IMG/VR virus record: IMGVR_UViG_3300036799_000154
Coordinates: 1-29,118 of that record
Length of the DNA stretch: 29,118 nucleotides
Strand: one strand, 5' to 3'
From: a virus
The notes below the pieces were generated by a model. The model worked only from the letters and a program-made list of their open reading frames with translations, made no database searches and had not been told where the DNA came from. A program made the translations under genes and the position numbers. Below, in pieces: positions 1-24,287 of this stretch (positions are counted from its first letter, which is position 1; the number at the start of each line of letters is the position of its first letter).

Positions 1-1324
1 GACCGTTCGTAAGCCGCCAATCGTCGGCTCGGTCGCGGTCCGGGCCGGGGAGCTGGGTATAGAGCTGAGGCCAGCGAATGGAGAATTCCCACTCGCGTAA
101 GGCGCCCTGAATCCTCGCCGCGTCGCCCGCCCGTCCGTTCGATCGGAGGTGGCTCTCGGCCACGAGAAGACACGTCTTCGCCGCTTGCTCTTCGTACCAT
201 GCCCACGCGCCGCGCCGCCCTTCCACCCATTGCAGGAGCGGGAGCTGCTCGGCCTGGATCGCGATGCCCGAGGCGCTCGCCTGCTGCACCATTCGAATCA
301 GGGACGGCGGTACGCCGTGCATTTCGAGCGAATGGTCCAGGAAGTTATTGAGGTCGGTCCAGTCGGCGTCGATGTATGCGAGCTCGGGAGCGAGGTAGAA
401 GAGCGTGGGGAGCTGGCCGTTTCCGGCCGCGTCCACGCCGCCCGCGGGGAGGGTAATGAAGTCGCCGGGCTTGATCTGGGCCGGGGGCCGCCAATTGGTG
501 TCGACGCCCTGCGCGATGCCGATCGGCCGCGCGTTGTAGGGGATCGAGTCGCCCAGGCGGTCAAGCCGCTCGTTCACCGATTCGTTGAGCTGGCGGAGCG
601 AGTCGCCGGGCCCGTCCTGCTCGAAGACTTGCGTTGGAAAATACCAATGCGTGAACGTGAATGGAAGGATTCCCGCCTCTTGCTCATCTTCGTCCGGGTC
701 GCTGACCTTGCGATAGGGATTATCCTTCTTGCCCTTGAACTTGTAGGCCGCGCCGCCCATTCCGGGATGTCCTGCGCTCTTCTCTGTCTCGAACGTGAGG
801 ACGCTTTCCTTGGTCCAGAGCCGGAGCCGCCGGCCGCTGTCGTAGTGGTCGATGACGGCGACCGCGTAGGGCTCGGTGGCTTCGTCCGGGTCGGTCCACA
901 CGACGGTCTCATGAGCCGCCCACTGGAGGACCTTGACCGGGCTTCCGGGGTCTTCATCGCCCGCGAACTGGAGGCCGCTGAATCCGCCGATCAGGGTGAG
1001 CTCGTCGGCCGCTTTCCACTTCGCCCACATGGCCGTGCGCTTGTAGAGCTTATTGAAAAACTCGGTAGCCAGCGCATCGGAGAGCCGGCGGGTAGGCTGG
1101 TTCTTGTACAGGTTCGCGGTGAGGATCTCGACGCACCGCTTGAAGATCGGCGAGGTGCGCCGCGTCGCGAGACTCGTGTATCGCGCGTCCCTCGATTTCG
1201 TCGGGAATTCCTCGAAATGGGACCGGGCGAAACGGTGGTTCTTCCGCGCGCAGTCGCGGAGCTGGTACGTGTTGTTGAGGCCGTTCTCGATCTCTTCCCG
1301 AATGTCTTTGATGTCGATGGACAT
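1..1324 (-). CDS. Phage portal protein (C-terminus beyond left edge)
   Basis: An open frame starts at ATG 1324 and stays open to base 1, giving at least 441 residues of an incomplete gene. The N-terminus is MSIDIKDIREEIENG. Portal proteins form the dodecameric ring at the capsid vertex through which DNA enters and leaves and to which the tail attaches. Support comes from position directly after the large terminase and from features typical of portals: a helical N-terminal part (residues 1-65), a beta-rich central clip/wing region with many Trp and Asp residues, and a late segment SGIAIQAEQLPLLQW, like the conserved Ser-Gly-Ala/Ile helix of SPP1/HK97-type portals. I do not recognise the exact subfamily. 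The start lies 3 bases after the stop of the preceding small gene. The long rightward frame at 149-1585 is its antisense shadow. Confidence 0.8.
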   Translation of the reverse strand, partial: MSIDIKDIREEIENGLNNTYQLRDCARKNHRFARSHFEEFPTKSRDARYTSLATRRTSPIFKRCVEILTANLYKNQPTRRLSDALATEFFNKLYKRTAMWAKWKAADELTLIGGFSGLQFAGDEDPGSPVKVLQWAAHETVVWTDPDEATEPYAVAVIDHYDSGRRLRLWTKESVLTFETEKSAGHPGMGGAAYKFKGKKDNPYRKVSDPDEDEQEAGILPFTFTHWYFPTQVFEQDGPGDSLRQLNESVNERLDRLGDSIPYNARPIGIAQGVDTNWRPPAQIKPGDFITLPAGGVDAAGNGQLPTLFYLAPELAYIDADWTDLNNFLDHSLEMHGVPPSLIRMVQQASASGIAIQAEQLPLLQWVEGRRGAWAWYEEQAAKTCLLVAESHLRSNGRAGDAARIQGALREWEFSIRWPQLYTQLPGPDRDRADDWRLTNG

Positions 1325-5831: not shown

Positions 5832-6446
5832 TCACGCGACCGTGCGCCGATCCTCCCGCGCCCTGGCCTGTTGCGCCTTGAGGTCGTCATAGAGCACGCG
5901 CAACCGTTCCAGCGCCCGACCTTCGAGCCGGGCCGCCTGCTGGTGGGAGACGCCCAGCATGGCCCCCAGCTTGCGGAGCGTTTCCCGCGGGGAGCCGTCG
6001 AGGGGATAGCGGAGCCGGAGGACCACGGCATCCAGGCCGCCCAGCGCGCCTACGACCGGGCCGAGCTGGGGAGCCGCCTCGGGTTCGGCCGCCGCGGGAG
6101 CCGCCGCCTCGGGGATTGACTGGAGGGGGATCGTGCGCAGCCGTGGCTTGCGCTCGCATCCCTTGAGCGCCACCCTGGCCAGCACGGGATAGACGAACGT
6201 GGCGAACCGGACGCCGGGGTAGCTGTCCGGGTCGTAATACTGTGGCGCCTCGCAGAGCGCCACGAAAACCCGCTGCTCGAGGTCATCGCATTTCGGGCCG
6301 TGCTCCCAACACGGATGTTTGCGGCAAATCGACTTGGCCAGGCCGAGGTTAGCCGTAACGAGCTGGTTGCGCGCGGAGAGGTCGCCCGAGCGGGCGCGCC
6401 GGCCGAGCGCGGTCTCTTCCTCGGCCGTGAGGGAATGGGTGCGCAT
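5832..6446 (-). CDS. Phage sigma-70 family RNA polymerase sigma factor
   Basis: A 204-residue protein starting at ATG 6446. Residues 25-95 match sigma region 2: ARNQLVTANLGLAKSICRK, then DDLEQRVFVALCEAP and GVRFATFVYPVLARV, the core-binding and -10-melting helices. After an Ala/Pro/Glu-rich linker (about 110-132), residues 135-185 match region 4, with an HTH in LRKLGAMLGVSHQQAARLEG binding the -35 element. Region 1.1 and region 3 are absent, so it is a small alternative sigma. It is the first gene of the leftward packaging operon, a suitable place for a phage factor that redirects host polymerase to late promoters. A 404-base regulatory gap separates it from the divergent recombinase. Confidence 0.88.
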   Translation of the reverse strand: MRTHSLTAEEETALGRRARSGDLSARNQLVTANLGLAKSICRKHPCWEHGPKCDDLEQRVFVALCEAPQYYDPDSYPGVRFATFVYPVLARVALKGCERKPRLRTIPLQSIPEAAAPAAAEPEAAPQLGPVVGALGGLDAVVLRLRYPLDGSPRETLRKLGAMLGVSHQQAARLEGRALERLRVLYDDLKAQQARAREDRRTVA

Positions 6447-6850: not shown

Positions 6851-7822
6851 ATGGCGCGCAGCAAACCAGACGACGGCCGCTTCGAACCCGCCCTGGCGCG
6901 GTTCCTCGACTACCTCAAAACCCGCGAGCGATCCCCTAATACGGTGCGCGCGTACAGCGCTGATCTCGAAGCTTTCGCCGGCTGGTACGCCAGCGCGTTG
7001 AGCTGCCCCCTGGCGAACGTCCTCGAGATTTCCGCGGTTGAGCTCCGCGAGTGGAAACGGGACATGCTGGCGAGGGGGCTACGGCCCGCCTCGGTCAACC
7101 GCCGGCTGTCGGCGGTTCAGAGCTTCGAGCGCTGGGCCGCCGAGACGTCGCTGATACCCGGCGCGCCCGAGCGCCCGACGAGCTGCCGCCAGGAAAGGCC
7201 CGGGGCGCGGTGGCTGGATCGCAAGGAGCGACTGGCCTTGATGCGCGCCGTGGAGCGCGCCGGGTCGCCGCGGGATCGGGCAATCGCCGTCGTCCTGCTC
7301 AATACGGGTCTACGGGTCGCCGAGCTGGCCGCGCTCGAGTGGCCCGATGTGACGATTACCGATCGCAAGGGGGTCGTGACGGTTAAGCGCGGCAAGGGTG
7401 CCAAGTGGCGCGAGGTGCCGCTCAACGATGACGCCCGCAAGGCGTTCCAGTCGATCGGTTACCCTGGCGATGGTGGCCGGGTCTGGATCGGCAAGCGCGG
7501 CCCGCTGACCGTACAGGGGATTCAGAAGGTGGTGGAGACGTTCGGCGCCGCCGCGGGGATCGATCTTTCCTGTCACCTGCTCCGGCATACCTTCTGTCAT
7601 GATCTGCTGGCCGCCGGCATCGGTCTGGAGAAGGTCGCCTCCCTGGCCGGTCATGACTCGATCGAGACCACGCGCCGCTACGTGGAGCCGAGCCAATCGG
7701 ATTTGCAGGATGCCGTCGACGCCCTTGGCGACAATGAACGGGACGAGCCGAGGTCCAAAGCGCCGCCGCGCCGGCAAAGCAGTCAAACGCGGTCGAGCCG
7801 AGGCCGAGATCGTTCCGCCTAG
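6851..7822 (+). CDS. XerC/XerD-like tyrosine recombinase
   Basis: A 323-residue protein starting at ATG 6851. Residues 12-105 form the SAM-like core-binding domain (FLDYLKTRERSPNTVRAYSA). The catalytic domain has the full tyrosine-recombinase set: Arg155 in NTGLRVAEL, Lys182 in the GKGAKWREVPL hairpin, His242-x-x-Arg245 in CHLLRHTF, His268 in LAGHDSIETT and nucleophile Tyr277 in TRRYVEP. Length and motifs are closest to XerC/XerD rather than long lambda-type integrases. The C-terminal 30 residues are basic and disordered. It is rightward and overlaps the convergent zinc-finger gene by 4 bases. The dif-like palindrome just upstream is a candidate substrate. Likely roles are dimer resolution of a circular genome, or Xer-type integration. 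Confidence 0.9.
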   Translation: MARSKPDDGRFEPALARFLDYLKTRERSPNTVRAYSADLEAFAGWYASALSCPLANVLEISAVELREWKRDMLARGLRPASVNRRLSAVQSFERWAAETSLIPGAPERPTSCRQERPGARWLDRKERLALMRAVERAGSPRDRAIAVVLLNTGLRVAELAALEWPDVTITDRKGVVTVKRGKGAKWREVPLNDDARKAFQSIGYPGDGGRVWIGKRGPLTVQGIQKVVETFGAAAGIDLSCHLLRHTFCHDLLAAGIGLEKVASLAGHDSIETTRRYVEPSQSDLQDAVDALGDNERDEPRSKAPPRRQSSQTRSSRGRDRSA

Positions 7823-10176: not shown

Positions 10177-10205
10177 ATCGTATTGCTTTTTTTCCACATT
10201 GTCAA
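10177..10205 (-). promoter_or_regulatory. Leftward sigma-70 promoter for RHH/secreted cassette
   Basis: On the minus strand, TTGACA (10205-10200) is followed after 17 bases by TACGAT (10182-10177). The -35 is consensus and the -10 matches 4 of 6 positions. It lies about 65 bases before the ATG at 10113. A CGTATTGC copy at 10179-10186 overlaps the -10. Confidence 0.65.
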
Positions 10206-10209
10206 GTCT

Positions 10210-10241
10210 GCGTATTGACAGGCGTATTGCCTTGCGTATAT
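10210..10241 (+). repeat. GCGTAT iterons, 12-base period (operator array)
   Basis: GCGTATTG at 10210-10217, GCGTATTG at 10222-10229 and GCGTATAT at 10234-10241 are spaced exactly 12 bases apart. A further CGTATTGC is at 10179-10186. The array overlaps the -35, spacer and -10 of the rightward promoter, so a bound protein would repress it. The adjacent RHH protein (9907-10113) is the natural candidate. Confidence 0.7.
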
Positions 10242-10242
10242 A
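10215..10242 (+). promoter_or_regulatory. Rightward sigma-70 promoter of early-type operon
   Basis: Consensus TTGACA (10215-10220) and TATATA (10237-10242) are separated by 16 bases. Transcription would begin near 10249, leaving about a 100-base leader before the ATG at 10348. It drives the small rightward genes leading to the replication-initiator-like gene. Confidence 0.72.
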
Positions 10243-10347
10243 CTTTGTATGTCAGGCTTGAGCGTCAAGCCGGGCGCAAAGAAAGGGCCGACGAGTGCGG
10301 TAACACCCGCCGGCCTGGCACTAGACCCCCCCCACAGAGGAGATCCG

Positions 10348-11348: not shown

Positions 11349-11399
11349 AGCGTAAAGGCCGATTGGAGCGCCTGGCGCACTCCGATCGGCCTTTACGCT
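11349..11399. other. Very strong 20-bp stem hairpin (dyad)
   Basis: Arms 11349-11368 and 11380-11399 are complementary over 20 bases with one T/G position; the loop is 11 bases (11369-11379). There is no U-tract on either side, so it is not a standard intrinsic terminator. It lies after the 10804-11328 gene and 298 bases before the replication-initiator-like gene. A processing site, cruciform at an origin, or protein-binding dyad are options. Confidence 0.8.
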
Positions 11400-11435: not shown

Positions 11436-11499
11436 CAGCCTTTTTCGAGCCTAATCCGTGCAAAGAGAAGCTCGAAAGAAGGCCTAAAACCGGGAAACA
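11436..11499 (+). ncRNA. Conserved-loop hairpin, copy A (candidate structured RNA)
   Basis: The 19-base loop CTAATCCGTGCAAAGAGAA (11451-11469) is closed by CGAGC/GCTCG plus five more T/A-type pairs and, after a bulged A, three G-C pairs, about 13 pairs in all. CCGGGAAACAG follows at 11490-11500. A second copy with a different stem lies at 12550-12613. The element sits just before an ATG at 11503 and upstream of the small rightward gene at 11560. It could be a leader RNA, an sRNA, or a single-strand DNA signal. Confidence 0.6.
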
Positions 11500-11559
11500 G
11501 CCATGAGACCGTTCCCCTCACGCGGGACTAAGCCCGCTGTGTCCGATCGTGGTCCTTGC

Positions 11560-11700
11560 ATGACCCGCGATCAGATAGCCACATCTTACGCAGACGCAAC
11601 CCCGCAAGCAAGGGCGGACGTGGCCGGAGACTGCCTCCAGGCCCGCGTCCTGGCCTTCATCGCCGTCGCTCATCGCGGCGGAGAGGAGGTGCGCCCATGA
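11560..11700 (+). CDS. Small protein upstream of replication initiator
   Basis: A 46-residue protein starting at ATG 11560 (MTRDQIATSYADATPQARAD); an in-frame ATG at 11503 would add 19 residues. It reads like one or two helices (DCLQARVLAFIAVAHRGGEE). Its stop overlaps the next ATG as ATGA, and GAGAGGAGG near its end serves as ribosome site for the next gene. Translational coupling to the initiator gene suggests a leader or regulatory role. The family is not recognised. Confidence 0.55.
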   Translation: MTRDQIATSYADATPQARADVAGDCLQARVLAFIAVAHRGGEEVRP

Positions 11701-12497
11701 GTGCGCCCTACTTCGCACCCGGTGGCTATGCCTGGCGCGCCATGCCTGGCCTGGAGTTGCTCCCTTGGGGACGCGCCCGCCATGTGTATGAATGGTTGAT
11801 TTGGAAGTCTGGAAATCGCCGCTTCGAGTTGCGGTACACGGACGCCCAGATCGCCGAGGGTATCGGCCGATCGCGCCGTTACGTGCAATTCGGCCTGGCT
11901 GAGCTGACGCGCCTCGGGCTGATCGTGCGGGACTTTGCGCGCAAGGTGAACCGATGGGGAAACACGCTTTACCACCGGGTCATTAGAGTGCTCGGTAGAG
12001 CGGCGGGTTCCGAGCCCAAGTCGAAAGACACCATTGACTTGAACCCTAAAAAATTGGACCCCCACCGCGCAAATACAGGCGACATCCAATCGCAGCCGGG
12101 TGCGCTTCCTTCCTTAGTGGAAGAGTTAAAACTTGAAGACAACAAAGGGGTCGTCGTCGGCGAGGCGGATGGGACCGCCCCTCCTCCGACCCCTGGGGAG
12201 GCCGAGGCCCCCGATCCCGAGCGCACCTCTGAGGCCCTGGCCGACTTCACCGCTCGCTTTGGCTCCAAGGCCCCTGAGCCGCCCCCAGTGGCATCGGTGG
12301 CCGCGCGCCCGGTAGTTCTGACGTCGCCTGCGGAGCGGCTGCCCAAACTGGCTGAGCAACGCGAGCAATTGCTGCGGTTGATCGAGGCTGCGAGCGCTCG
12401 GGATGACACGATCACGCTCGATGAGATGGGACCGAGACTGCTCAGACTGGAGGCTGAGATCCGCGAGTGCCAAAGGGCTGCTGAACCGCCGCCTTGA
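11697..12497 (+). CDS. Winged-helix replication-initiator-like protein
   Basis: A 266-residue protein starting at ATG 11697 with a good ribosome site (GAGGAGG). Residues 25-85 form a winged helix: RHVYEWLIWKSGNRRFELRY, then DAQIAEGIGRSRRYVQFGLA and LTRLGLIVRD, with NRWGNTLYHR as wing. This HTH style is seen in phage and plasmid replication initiators and DnaD/helix-turn-helix_36 proteins. The rest is a Pro/Ala-rich linker and a helical C-terminus (PAERLPKLAEQREQLLRLIE). It ends the rightward operon and is flanked by two related hairpins (11436 and 12550), which would suit origin or copy-control elements. A transcription regulator is the alternative. Confidence 0.65.
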   Translation: MSAPYFAPGGYAWRAMPGLELLPWGRARHVYEWLIWKSGNRRFELRYTDAQIAEGIGRSRRYVQFGLAELTRLGLIVRDFARKVNRWGNTLYHRVIRVLGRAAGSEPKSKDTIDLNPKKLDPHRANTGDIQSQPGALPSLVEELKLEDNKGVVVGEADGTAPPPTPGEAEAPDPERTSEALADFTARFGSKAPEPPPVASVAARPVVLTSPAERLPKLAEQREQLLRLIEAASARDDTITLDEMGPRLLRLEAEIRECQRAAEPPP

Positions 12498-12549
12498 ATC
12501 TGATTCGAACCCGCTGATCGTGCGCGCCGAGCGGAGAGTGAAAAGGAAA

Positions 12550-12613
12550 AACCGCCCCTGGGCTAATCCGTGCAAGAGAAACCCAAGGAGCGGCCGGGAA
12601 AACAGCGGTCCTC
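12550..12613 (+). ncRNA. Conserved-loop hairpin, copy B (candidate structured RNA)
   Basis: The loop CTAATCCGTGCAAGAGAAA (12563-12581) is again 19 bases and differs from copy A only by moving one A. The stem is unrelated in sequence: TGGG/CCCA next to the loop, then a bulged A, two C-G pairs, one mismatch and four G-C pairs. CCGGGAAAACAG follows, as in copy A. Different stems around a constant loop imply selection on the folded form. Confidence 0.6.
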
Positions 12614-12709
12614 ACGTGTGCGATTGTGCACAGGGTAACCCCGATGTCAACTGCACCCGAAGCACCACAGGTCCACGCCCACGGCCCCCCGGCGTCCGGG
12701 AAGAGCCGA

Positions 12710-12753
12710 TATGCCCGGCAGGATTTGAACCTGCAACCTTTAGCTCCGGAGCC
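12710..12753 (-). other. attP: attP core: 3' half of tRNA-Arg(CCG)
   Basis: Read on the minus strand from 12753: an anticodon loop with CTCCGGA (anticodon CCG), then AGGTT, a perfect T arm GCAGG-TTCAAAT-CCTGC (12734-12718) and acceptor strand CGGGCAT. Sequence beyond 12753 does not form a 5' tRNA half: the anticodon stem fails to pair and there is no GG in a D-loop. Such a half-tRNA next to a tyrosine integrase is the classic identity block of tRNA-targeting phages. The integrase start is 110 bases away. The exact core ends are uncertain. Confidence 0.8.
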
Positions 12754-12862
12754 ATATGCTCATTCGTTTAAGATTAAGCAATTACGCAATCTGTGCATGG
12801 CGGCCCCGGCTTCGTGTGATAGAGTTTCTCGCTTCACCCCATCACACCAAGCCGAGACCATC

Positions 12863-13786
12863 ATGCCCAAAAGAAAGAGTTGGGCCTCCTTCTCCGAGGA
12901 GGTCGTGAGCCTGTACGCGCCCCCGGTTCGCCGTCGTGGCACACAACGATTGATCAAGTCCGTCCTGGATGAGTTCGCGCCCCGATGCCGGTGGGTTTCC
13001 GACCTGGGACCCGCGGCGATCGCCGGCTGGATCGCCGATCATCCGGGCCGGAGGCCTGAGTCGGTGTACAGCAAACTGCGCAGTCTCAGAGCCGCGGTGA
13101 CCTATGCCCTGGTCCGCGGGTATCTCCGGGTTTCCCCGTTCGCCTTTCGGTCCGCGCGAGCCTGGTCGTCGTGGGAGGCGCCCGAGCTGCCGGCGCCGGT
13201 TTGCTCCAGCGCGCAGGTCCGCGCGATCCTGGCACTCGCCGATCGGGAAGCCCAGACCGGCCACTGGCGCACCCACTGGCGACGCCAACGGCTGCGGGCG
13301 CTGGTCTACCTGCTAGCCTATACCGGGGTCAGACCGGCGGAAGCGCTCGGCCTGGAGGTGGCTGACGTGGATCTGGGGAGGGGCCTGGTGTCGATCAAAA
13401 GCAATCAGGGCCGATCGCTCAAGACCCGCGCCTCGGCCGCGTCCGTGCCCATCCCGGAGCCCTTGCGGCCGGTCCTGGCGCACTGGATTCCCCAGACCGG
13501 CGGTGAGTGGCTTTTCCCTGGCACGCGCAAACGGGGTGCGTGGCTGACGGGAGGGCCCGGGGTCAGGGCACTTGACCAGGTGAGGGACCTGGGGGAGAGG
13601 GCCGGGGTCAAGGGGCTGACGCTCGTCTCGTTCCGGCACACGTTCGCCAGCATGGCCGAGCTCTGGGGACTGGGGGAGCTCGCCTTGCAGCGGCTCTTAC
13701 GCCACACGAGGCTGAAAACCCAGCTCCATTACCGGCACGAGATGCCGGCGATGCTGGCCGATGCGGCGGGGAGAATTCGGTTCTGA
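12863..13786 (+). CDS. int: Phage integrase (tyrosine recombinase)
   Basis: A 307-residue protein starting at ATG 12863; upstream in-frame codons run through the tRNA remnant and are rejected. The core-binding domain spans about residues 5-100. Catalytic positions are Arg157 (AYTGVRPAEAL), Lys187 (SLKTR), Arg258 with His259 (LVSFRHTFAS), His281 (LLRHTRLKT) and nucleophile Tyr290. The usual first His of the H-x-x-R motif is Val255, a departure that may still allow activity. It is clearly different in sequence from the recombinase at 6851-7822. Adjacent to the half tRNA-Arg, it is the likely integrase for insertion into a host tRNA-Arg(CCG) gene. Confidence 0.88.
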   Translation: MPKRKSWASFSEEVVSLYAPPVRRRGTQRLIKSVLDEFAPRCRWVSDLGPAAIAGWIADHPGRRPESVYSKLRSLRAAVTYALVRGYLRVSPFAFRSARAWSSWEAPELPAPVCSSAQVRAILALADREAQTGHWRTHWRRQRLRALVYLLAYTGVRPAEALGLEVADVDLGRGLVSIKSNQGRSLKTRASAASVPIPEPLRPVLAHWIPQTGGEWLFPGTRKRGAWLTGGPGVRALDQVRDLGERAGVKGLTLVSFRHTFASMAELWGLGELALQRLLRHTRLKTQLHYRHEMPAMLADAAGRIRF

Positions 13787-22128: not shown

Positions 22129-23652
22129 TTAGATGCCTTGTCGTTTGATCTTGCCGAAGTGGGGATCGGGACCGAGCCGGGTCGCCCGGGCTAGCCGCGG
22201 GTTGGGCCCGTCGTGACGTGTCTTGCCGAAGTTGGGATCGGGACCGAGGCGAATGATGTGCGTGTGGGTCGGGTCGGGGACCGTGACAAGGAGCGTCAAG
22301 GTGGTGGTTGAACCGAGGACCGGGCCGCCGCCGGTGGCGCCGGAATCGAGGGTCCAATCGGCGCCGGGGTTGGTGGTGCCGCCCAGGAGGACGCCGCCCG
22401 AGGGTGCCGCGGTGAATTCGAGCGGGCCCGCGAGAGTGGCACCACCTACGACCGGGCCGCCCGAGGGTGCCGCGGTGAATTCGATGATCGGTTGAGGCGG
22501 GTCGGTCGTGTGGCCGCCCAGCACGACGCCGCCGCCGCCCGCGACCACGGAGAAGAAAAGCGAGCCCTGCGCGGCACCGCCTACGACCGGGCCGGCGGAG
22601 CTGGTGGCCGTGAAGCTAACCGAGGGTGCGAACGTGCCGCCTACGACCGGGCCGGCGGAGCTGGTGGCCGTGAATTCGATGATCGGTTGAGGCGGGTCGG
22701 TCGTGTGGCCGCCCAGCACGACGCCGCCAGAGGACGAGCGGAAGAAATCGATATCAGGCTGAGCGGCCAGCCCGCCGGCCATTGGGCCGCCGCCGGAGCT
22801 GCCCTGAAAACCGGCCGAGGGAGTGCTTGCGCTCGAGAGCACCAGGCCACCACCGCCCGCGACGGTGAAGGTTGGAGCGCCCAGCAGGAAGACGCGTAGC
22901 CGCGGCGATTCAAAGACCTTCCATCGCGTGGCCGGGTCGTAGAGTTCCGGGCCGAGTTCCGGCCGCGGGTAGTTGTAGATCCGAAAGTCGTAGAAGCTGC
23001 CGACGGCCGCGTTGAAAGCCGAGAAAAAGCGGTTGCCCGTCGCCCCGAAACCGGAGTCGCCGCCAGCGATCACCGTTTGTTCGACACCATCAATCCAGCA
23101 TCGAGCATTAACTCCGTCCCAGGTCCAAACGAAGACCGAGAACCGCGCCATCGGCAACGCGATTGTGGCACTGATTTTCTTGAGACAAACCTCGGTGCCC
23201 GCGCTATTCGCAGCCACAAGAAAGGGCTGATAGGTGCTCGAACTGGTGCTTGCCGTGGTGCACTGGAAACCCGCTTGACCCGAGTTGCGGCACGAGAGCA
23301 CGCCCTTGTAGCCGCCGCCCGCGTCGAGACGAGCCCGGTAGGAGACCGTGAACGTGGGCAGGTTCAAAAGGCCCGATTGCGGAAAGGTCGGGTAATCCGT
23401 CGCCCCAGCCTGGCCCAGCGCGTTGGGTACATAGGGAGCCGCCCAGAGTTCGCCCGCCGCGAGCTTGACCGAGTTCGGATGTCCCGCCGGCACCACGGCA
23501 TTGAGGCCGTTTGCGACGTCCTGGAAAGACTGGCCGCCCCCCTCCCACATCGGCCACAACGCCACCAGGCCCGCGGCGTGATCCGAGCCCCAATGAATCG
23601 GGGTGCCCGGCTCGACGCCGCACTGCCAGGGGTCGGCGCGCGAGAGCCTCAA
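22129..23652 (-). CDS. LamG-domain fibre-like protein with Gly-rich repeats
   Basis: A 507-residue protein. TTG 23652 overlaps the upstream stop as TTGA and is preferred to a frame reaching 23739. Residues about 18-240 resemble a concanavalin/LamG sandwich: DHAAGLVALWPMWEGGGQSF at the start, LPTFTVSYRARLDAGGG and SFYDFRIYNYPRPELGPELY near the end. Residues about 265-440 are Gly/Ser/Val repeats of the form FTATSSAGPVVGG and GGVVLGGHTTDPPQPIIEF. The end repeats RLGPDPNFGK/RLGPDPHFGK. LamG folds bind sugars or proteins, so receptor or surface binding is plausible. It lies among head/tail genes, so a capsid-surface adhesin or fibre are both possible. Confidence 0.72.
   Translation of the reverse strand: MRLSRADPWQCGVEPGTPIHWGSDHAAGLVALWPMWEGGGQSFQDVANGLNAVVPAGHPNSVKLAAGELWAAPYVPNALGQAGATDYPTFPQSGLLNLPTFTVSYRARLDAGGGYKGVLSCRNSGQAGFQCTTASTSSSTYQPFLVAANSAGTEVCLKKISATIALPMARFSVFVWTWDGVNARCWIDGVEQTVIAGGDSGFGATGNRFFSAFNAAVGSFYDFRIYNYPRPELGPELYDPATRWKVFESPRLRVFLLGAPTFTVAGGGGLVLSSASTPSAGFQGSSGGGPMAGGLAAQPDIDFFRSSSGGVVLGGHTTDPPQPIIEFTATSSAGPVVGGTFAPSVSFTATSSAGPVVGGAAQGSLFFSVVAGGGGVVLGGHTTDPPQPIIEFTAAPSGGPVVGGATLAGPLEFTAAPSGGVLLGGTTNPGADWTLDSGATGGGPVLGSTTTLTLLVTVPDPTHTHIIRLGPDPNFGKTRHDGPNPRLARATRLGPDPHFGKIKRQGI
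22476..22728 (-). repeat. 58-base direct repeat within the fibre gene
   Basis: Bases 22476-22533 and 22671-22728 are identical, 195 bases apart. Inside this span, a further unit around CCGCCTACGACCGGGCC near 22578 and 22638 repeats at 60 bases. In-frame duplication produces the GHTTDPPQPIIEF repeats. Such identity invites recombination that adds or removes repeat units. Confidence 0.85.
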
Positions 23653-24287
23653 GCCGAGGACTCCGAGTCGTAAGTGGTCGCCAGCGCCTCGACGTAGACC
23701 GAACTGCCGGTTGTGCTTGCTCCATAGTCGAAAATACACTCATAGACCGAACCGCCCGCGAGCCACACAGGGGCAAAGCAATCGGCTCCGTTGACCACCG
23801 TATCGCTCGATGCATGGGCCTTTTTCATGGGCGCGTCGAGCGTCAGCGTGGTCGTGGCGAACTTGCTCACCCGCGCCCACTCGTAATTGCTCACCGTGCC
23901 GCTGTTGCCGCCGATAAAGACGACCGACCCATGAATGCCCACGGTCGTCCAGTTTGACGCCGAGCTGAGCGTGGTATCGGCGATGCTCGAACTGGCGTTG
24001 GTGGCCTGGCTGGTGAGGGTCGAGCCCGATCCCGTGGAAGTCTGGCGAGCCACCACGGCACCCGGATGCCCCACGCCGTTGTTATTGATCGTCCGGCGCA
24101 CCAGCAGGTCAAGGGCCGCCGTGCCGGGTGCCGTCGTGCCGAGCCAGCCCACGCGCAGGAAAACCCAGGCGCCGAACTTGCCCCGCAAGTCGATCGTGCC
24201 GCGTGCGCTGGCCCCGGCCGCTACGGTCGTAGCGGCAACGACGGCGGTTGCGGTATCGGTAAATAATGGGGTTGTCGTGGTTGCCAT
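23649..24287 (-). CDS. Beta-rich structural protein (head or fibre region)
   Basis: A 212-residue protein starting at ATG 24287 (MATTTTPLFTDTATAVVAAT); the longer frame to 24407 adds a basic, unlikely start. It is rich in Thr, Ser, Ala and Val with strand patterns: GTIDLRGKFGAWVFLRVGWL, then SVVFIGGNSGTVSNYEWARV and SSVYVEALATTYDS. There are no charged helices. It looks like a decoration, spike or adhesion domain. It lies directly before the LamG protein with a 4-base overlap, so the two may assemble together. The family is not recognised. Confidence 0.68.
   Translation of the reverse strand: MATTTTPLFTDTATAVVAATTVAAGASARGTIDLRGKFGAWVFLRVGWLGTTAPGTAALDLLVRRTINNNGVGHPGAVVARQTSTGSGSTLTSQATNASSSIADTTLSSASNWTTVGIHGSVVFIGGNSGTVSNYEWARVSKFATTTLTLDAPMKKAHASSDTVVNGADCFAPVWLAGGSVYECIFDYGASTTGSSVYVEALATTYDSESSA

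Follow-up and report, generated by a model that had tools for sequence, protein, structure and literature searches.

Plasmid copy-number antisense RNAs are classically encoded opposite their target. In the temperate phage lambda, the OOP RNA is a leftward RNA of about 77 nt that lies next to the replication genes, has a promoter and a terminator of its own and is antisense to the 3′ end of cII. In size and location, OOP is the phage RNA that comes closest to the predicted RNA described here; our locus differs by its complementarity to a second, upstream site. Among plasmid RNAs, RNAII of pMV158 is 48 nt long, lies opposite the repB leader and is fully complementary to it, and its 6-nt loop is of secondary importance (PMC4485353).

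The DNA that we analysed is the complete IMG/VR virus record IMGVR_UViG_3300036799_000154, and this whole stretch of 29,118 bases is referred to below as the window. Two hairpins, their stem covariation, promoter and terminator signatures and complementarity between the two copies can be read directly in it. We consider it about an even call that the second copy of the hairpin gives rise to an antisense RNA of about 74 nt and that the first copy is the target of this RNA in the leader of the initiator mRNA.

Paired hairpins around the initiator gene

The window contains two hairpins with near-identical 19-base loops at the positions where the sequence-only reading had placed them, one on either side of the predicted replication-initiator gene. 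The corresponding features are the following:

11438–11483, plus strand: copy-1 hairpin, a 13-bp stem with one bulged G and no T-run on either strand; predicted target in the initiator mRNA leader
11451–11469, plus strand: copy-1 loop CTAATCCGTGCAAAGAGAA = CUAAUCCGUGCAAAGAGAA, from sequence reading and the shuffle test
12563–12581, plus strand: copy-2 loop CTAATCCGTGCAAGAGAAA, which on the minus strand reads UUUCUCUUGCACGGAUUAG and is antisense to the copy-1 loop
11697–12497, plus strand: replication-initiator gene (266 aa), weakly matching phrog_391 "replication initiation O-like" (E 4e-4), with an N-terminal match to the initiator of the related phage L003

The two loops have 13 bases exactly in common and 18 in common when one 1-nt gap is allowed. 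The stem arms of copy 1 (GCCTTTTTCGAGC/GCTCGAAAGAAGGC) form 13 pairs. Those of copy 2 (CCGCCCCTGGG/CCCAAGGAGCGG) form 11 standard pairs on the minus strand and 10 Watson–Crick pairs on the plus strand, where the stem also has a bulge and a C-A mismatch. The earlier description of stems that are unrelated in sequence yet both paired is thereby borne out (13 pairs versus 10 pairs); the bulged A that it assigned to the 3′ arm of copy 1 is in fact a G. The joint event of a loop match of at least 18/19 with both stems of at least 6 bp occurred in none of 250 shuffles (observed stems, 13 and 10). The 13-mer loop match by itself is not decisive, as two of 100 shuffles hold two such sites, and the raw 74-mer similarity between the copies is unexceptional in this codon-repetitive genome, in which other, coding, stretches match it.

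Similarity is also present next to the hairpins. The CCGGGAAA(A)CAGC match reported to follow each of them has a P of about 0.009 (174 of 20,000 random pairs), and the 35 bases 3′ of the hairpins match better than in 99% of random pairs. The GAAC-GCCGCCTT sequence that had been noted before each hairpin does show the likeness, but its significance is doubtful because its distance to the loop differs (about 30 nt versus 82 nt), the copy-2 instance falls within initiator codons and 66 of 1000 shuffles reach the extended alignment. A duplication of ~150 bp around both hairpins was considered and rejected, since the similarity is not significant past the hairpin and tail (66/1000 on the left, 354/1000 on the right). 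No third copy of the loop was found within the 29,118-nt window, which holds two copies only.

The aligned helix has 12 stem pairs, and when the minus strand is read every one of them is standard in either copy. In seven of the 12, both sides have changed, and such compensatory double changes support the earlier proposal that stem covariation around a fixed loop reflects a selected nucleic-acid structure. Two further pairs are changed from U-A or C-G to U-G on the minus strand; on the plus strand these become C-A in copy 2 and break. The isolated hairpins fold with −21.1 and −26.3 kcal/mol on the minus strand and with −17.9 and −15.9 kcal/mol on the plus strand, the copy-2 fold of the latter being weak (z −0.26). 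These observations, which are modest evidence from two sequences only, point to the minus strand as the more informative strand of the hairpins, whereas the sequence-only reading had been made on the other strand. We also considered a plus-strand pseudoknot between loop and tail (UCCG with CGGG), both parts of which are invariant.

The supposition that the hairpins lie outside known RNA families agrees with the Rfam covariance models, which gave no match in the window at the gathering score and, at E ≤ 10, no meaningful hit near the elements whichever strand was used. The exact loop pattern had no match in viral contigs and six in genome contigs, none of them with a stem. The loop core followed by a T-run gave five matches without stems, and the two matches to the loop-plus-tail pattern were both coding and were dismissed as chance. 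The sequence-only reading had staked its case on a covariance search yielding further copies and on covarying stems, and the outcome was mixed: the search returned the window's two copies only, but the stems do covary. Searches for relatives by initiator, terminase and integrase identified one related record only, L003, and named phages gave neither a DNA match nor an initiator match.

Several other features of this phage were recorded. The region 12711–12760 (minus strand) corresponds to the 3′ part of a tRNA gene, with the anticodon loop CTCCGGA, the T arm GCAGGTTCAAATCCTGC and a weak Rfam tRNA match. This is probably the phage attachment site, in a tRNA-Arg(CCG) gene and directly before the integrase gene (12863–13786); the tRNA fragment was absent from 145 genomes of the phylum of a Verrucomicrobiales match (L005). 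The 29-kb phage carries two tyrosine recombinases (6851–7822 and 12863–13786, both on the plus strand), only the second of which is localised at the attachment site. A sigma-70-like factor is encoded at 5832–6446 on the minus strand (PHROG 351, E 4e-18; Pfam regions 2 and 4 just below cut-offs). An exactly repeated hairpin-forming sequence at 22504 and 22699 is a coding repeat in the repetitive structural gene 22129–23739 (minus strand).

The predicted RNA and its predicted target

On the minus strand, copy 2 is accompanied by signals that would delimit a short transcript:

12544–12617, minus strand: predicted small antisense RNA of about 74 nt, with a promoter upstream and a terminator at its end; fold −31.9 kcal/mol
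12623–12650, minus strand: promoter TTGACA-16-CACAAT of the predicted RNA, with 10/12 consensus matches
12552–12593, minus strand: copy-2 hairpin doubling as an intrinsic terminator (−23.6 kcal/mol, all pairs standard on this strand)
12594–12608, minus strand: 5′ tail CCGCUGUUUUCCCGG of the predicted RNA, antisense to 11490–11501 (−20.0 kcal/mol)

Judged by this arrangement, which had escaped the sequence-only reading, copy 2 has the appearance of an entire small-RNA gene on the minus strand. The predicted RNA would be composed of a 5′ tail with a small hairpin, the terminator hairpin with its 19-nt loop and a U-rich 3′ end. Its promoter has a perfect −35 element and four of six matches in the −10 element, measured against a consensus that may not match the promoter preferences of the host. 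Three positions in the 29-kb window have at least 10/12 promoter matches, the other two being the divergent pair 10205/10215. This number is unremarkable because shuffles average 1.25 per window; the notable point is the position of the promoter, about 30 bases before the minus-strand copy-2 hairpin. Directly after this hairpin lies TTTTTCCTTTT (12551–12541), T-runs start at 0.2% of window positions, and no other intrinsic terminator on the minus strand of the window is as strong as this hairpin. No minus-strand gene served by this terminator is evident there. Neither of these minus-strand signals, promoter or T-run, is present at copy 1.

The region of copy 1 that would be recognised by this RNA, together with the presumed source of its transcript, comprises the following:

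11490–11501, plus strand: CCGGGAAACAGC, second conserved segment, common to 12594–12606 and ending 1 nt before ATG 11503
11516–11522, plus strand: CCUCACG, a possible third pairing segment, 7 nt shared with 12616–12610 (the RNA 5′ end); marginal, not significant alone
11503–11700, plus strand: leader ORF of 65 codons, a candidate gene (open frame) whose stop overlaps the initiator start (ATGA)
10215–10244, plus strand: early rightward promoter TTGACA-18-TATACT, with 11/12 matches; presumed source of the target mRNA

Because the two copies are direct repeats, a minus-strand RNA of copy 2 is complementary to a plus-strand RNA of copy 1, and copy 2 is therefore a candidate antisense regulator of copy 1. 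Such complementarity is not independent proof, since it is automatic for any direct repeat read on opposite strands. Predicted loop-on-loop pairing between the copy-2 RNA and copy 1 comprises 18 bp and a single bulged base (−25.9 kcal/mol); the outermost 5′ bases of the RNA would pair with 11516–11522 at −13.0 kcal/mol. The cofold of the small RNA with the leader reached −101.6 kcal/mol versus −79.4 kcal/mol for the two apart, which is 22 kcal/mol better. If the strand opposite the RNA itself is set aside, the loop has its best partner within the window in copy 1, which also ranks first by alignment; for the tail segment taken alone, several sites elsewhere in the window are equally good or better. 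The copy-1 loop is mostly unpaired in the leader fold. By inspection, the YUNR U-turn motif is matched in the RNA loop by CUUG and UUAG and in the target loop by CUAA, but this motif often occurs by chance.

Neither Pfam nor NCBIfam gave a match for the leader ORF, and its 65-aa product shows no long hydrophobic stretch by inspection. Coupling between leader and initiator may be weak, because a clear Shine-Dalgarno sequence is lacking before the leader ORF, whereas the initiator gene has a strong one of its own (GGAGAGGAGG). Just upstream of the first hairpin, at 11349–11399 (plus strand), we identified an inverted repeat of 23 bp that is 91% paired, with a 5-nt loop and without a T-run; it lies in the same leader and is possibly a site for RNase III or a protein. 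The early rightward promoter belongs to a back-to-back pair at 10177–10244 (TTGACA-17-TACGAT leftward, TTGACA-18-TATACT rightward), which we presume to be the early switch. The leftward promoter leads to a 68-aa ORF (10113–9907) that resembles a ribbon-helix-helix regulator by eye and has no significant family match.

The related phage L003 (IMGVR_UViG_3300017649_000011), whose TerL is 64% identical to that of the window phage, encodes an initiator in which HTH_36 was detected together with a DnaB_2 match below threshold. Two signals are localised at the start of this gene:

1140–1168 of L003, plus strand: promoter-like site TTGACT-17-TAGTAT, the only one in the first 4.8 kb
1191–1221 of L003, plus strand: terminator (−22.5 kcal/mol, T6), the second-strongest of the record

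The promoter-like site is on the strand opposite the initiator and ends at its start codon, and promoter and terminator together bracket this codon in antisense orientation. The region 1140–1226 (plus strand) is thus predicted to encode a cis antisense RNA of about 50 nt, at 1175–1226, opposite the initiator leader. This suggests that control of the initiator by antisense RNA may recur among these phages and that the form present in the window may be a duplicated and split one. A GTAATCCGTGCGA site in L003 was rejected as a further copy of the element; it is located inside the L003 initiator gene and lacks a stem.

Proposed mechanism and alternative readings

Under the mechanism that we propose, the RNA would start near 12617 and end in a hairpin serving both as terminator and as recognition element. 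The 19-nt loop of this RNA would form 18 bp with the copy-1 loop, and the tail at its 5′ end would bind CCGGGAAACAGC beside ATG 11503. This pairing would block translation of the leader ORF and, via the ATGA overlap, less initiator would be made, so that the antisense RNA would restrain phage replication, in a lysogen for instance. The stems would be free to diverge while still paired because recognition needs the loop and tail only. We infer the transcription of the copy-2 RNA, its pairing in trans, the translational block and its role in replication from the features described above; a function is argued for by the retention of the pairing segments, the compensatory changes in the stems and the placement of opposite-strand signals exactly around copy 2. 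The pair likely originated from a duplicated cis-antisense/leader unit of the L003 kind, followed by a division of labour.

The full form of this proposal is a trans-acting antisense RNA on the initiator that derives from a duplicated and split cis unit, one copy being the regulator with promoter and terminator and the other the target. The loop and start-codon tail would be held identical as the stems drift compensatorily, and the loop would function as an immunity or incompatibility code that changes in both places at once. We put this forward tentatively and rate it clearly below even. The pair is held by one phage only, and a second example with co-varying loops was not found in database searches.

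The copy-2 RNA could be real and act in cis only, as lambda OOP does: antisense to the initiator–integrase junction, it would affect 3′ processing of the initiator mRNA or expression of the integrase, and copy 1 would be a relic of the duplicated unit. The promoter and terminator at copy 2, complementarity that is complete in cis and the absence of a minus-strand promoter or T-run from copy 1 all fit this explanation, but one would not expect a relic to have retained CCGGGAAACAGC beside the ATG, a 13-bp stem and a loop match of 18/19 when everything else diverged, and we regard this explanation as unlikely. We rank below it the explanation that both hairpins are protein-binding sites in the plus-strand early mRNA, for autoregulation by the initiator or for an antiterminator as with the HK022 put sites, where the fixed loop and tail are read and the stem sequence is ignored. 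Covariation around a fixed loop that is mostly unpaired in the leader fold would be expected of such sites, as would their same orientation in one presumed operon downstream of promoter 10215; however, the two plus-strand pairs that break in copy 2 and the weak plus fold (z −0.26) argue against them, and the minus-strand promoter and terminator at copy 2 would be left unexplained.

That the pair goes back to an old duplication or to chance and has no present function is in keeping with its presence in one genome only and with the raw similarity of the copies, which other, coding, stretches equal. We consider it improbable, given the outcome of the loop-and-stem test (0/250 shuffles), the seven compensatory changes and a promoter and terminator placed to fit. 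Least probable is that the elements act as DNA, for instance as single-stranded hairpins that serve in priming, or in recombination around the initiator module and attachment site. The hairpins do flank the initiator gene and lie near the tRNA-derived attachment site (12711–12760) and the integrase gene, but the strand-specific G-U versus A-C pairs and the transcription signals favour RNA. Integron attC sites have conserved RYYYAAC/GTTRRRY ends on an imperfect hairpin, and no such ends flank either hairpin in the sequence that was read.

Comparison with characterised antisense systems

The predicted RNA resembles pMV158 RNAII, a short counter-transcript in which a 5′ tail is followed by a single terminator hairpin that has a 1-nt bulge and a U-rich end; the tail of RNAII pairs just upstream of an initiator start, and translation of the initiator is blocked (PMC4485353). 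Unlike RNAII, it would be encoded separately, 1.1 kb away, with the loop and tail alone complementary. The layout in L003, where the RNA would be opposite the initiator leader itself, is closer to pMV158 RNAII than that of the window (PMC4485353). In common with plasmid-type antisense RNAs (RNAII, CopA), the region 12650–12541 (minus strand) has promoter and terminator signatures of a putative RNA antisense to the initiator gene, but the copy-2 RNA is not opposite the initiator 5′ leader, to which only the loop, the tail and perhaps the 7-nt segment are complementary.

The CopA/CopT-tap-repA system of R1 has a similar design of antisense RNA with a leader ORF, which is coupled in R1 (PMC12361487). 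CopA is encoded opposite CopT, whereas the candidate here is a diverged second copy, with a 65-codon leader ORF and putative coupling (PMC12361487). With respect to R1-type tap coupling, 11503–11700 overlaps the start at 11697 through ATGA, and the initiator also has its own Shine-Dalgarno sequence.

In RNA I/RNA II of par_pAD1, as proposed for the window, direct repeats read in opposite directions lead to complementarity over a translation start, and the terminator loop starts the pairing (PMC7472228). However, par_pAD1 is a toxin-antitoxin locus with convergent transcripts and a shared bidirectional terminator, whereas the hairpins here are two and separate (PMC7472228); we recognised no toxin-like ORF, and hairpin 1 has no T-run. 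The CI RNA of satellite phage P4 (seqA/seqC), much as proposed here, pairs with short complementary leader repeats of replication genes, which are thereby off in the lysogen (PMC4825925). CI RNA differs in being processed from a same-strand leader transcript and in causing transcription termination (PMC4825925); the predicted promoter of the window is on the opposite strand.

The system in the window is not a member of the pMV158 RNAII, R1 CopA, par_pAD1 or P4 CI RNA systems, because the predicted RNA is not opposite its leader target, no toxin is recognised, the predicted promoter is on the opposite strand and there is no Rfam match. If our proposal is correct, RNA-based control of lysis-lysogeny or superinfection becomes testable in a lineage for which no characterised close relatives were found, and the loop would provide a simple, readable specificity code to seek in other phages. 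A separately encoded, duplicated and split phage version of these systems would then represent a route from cis antisense to trans regulator.
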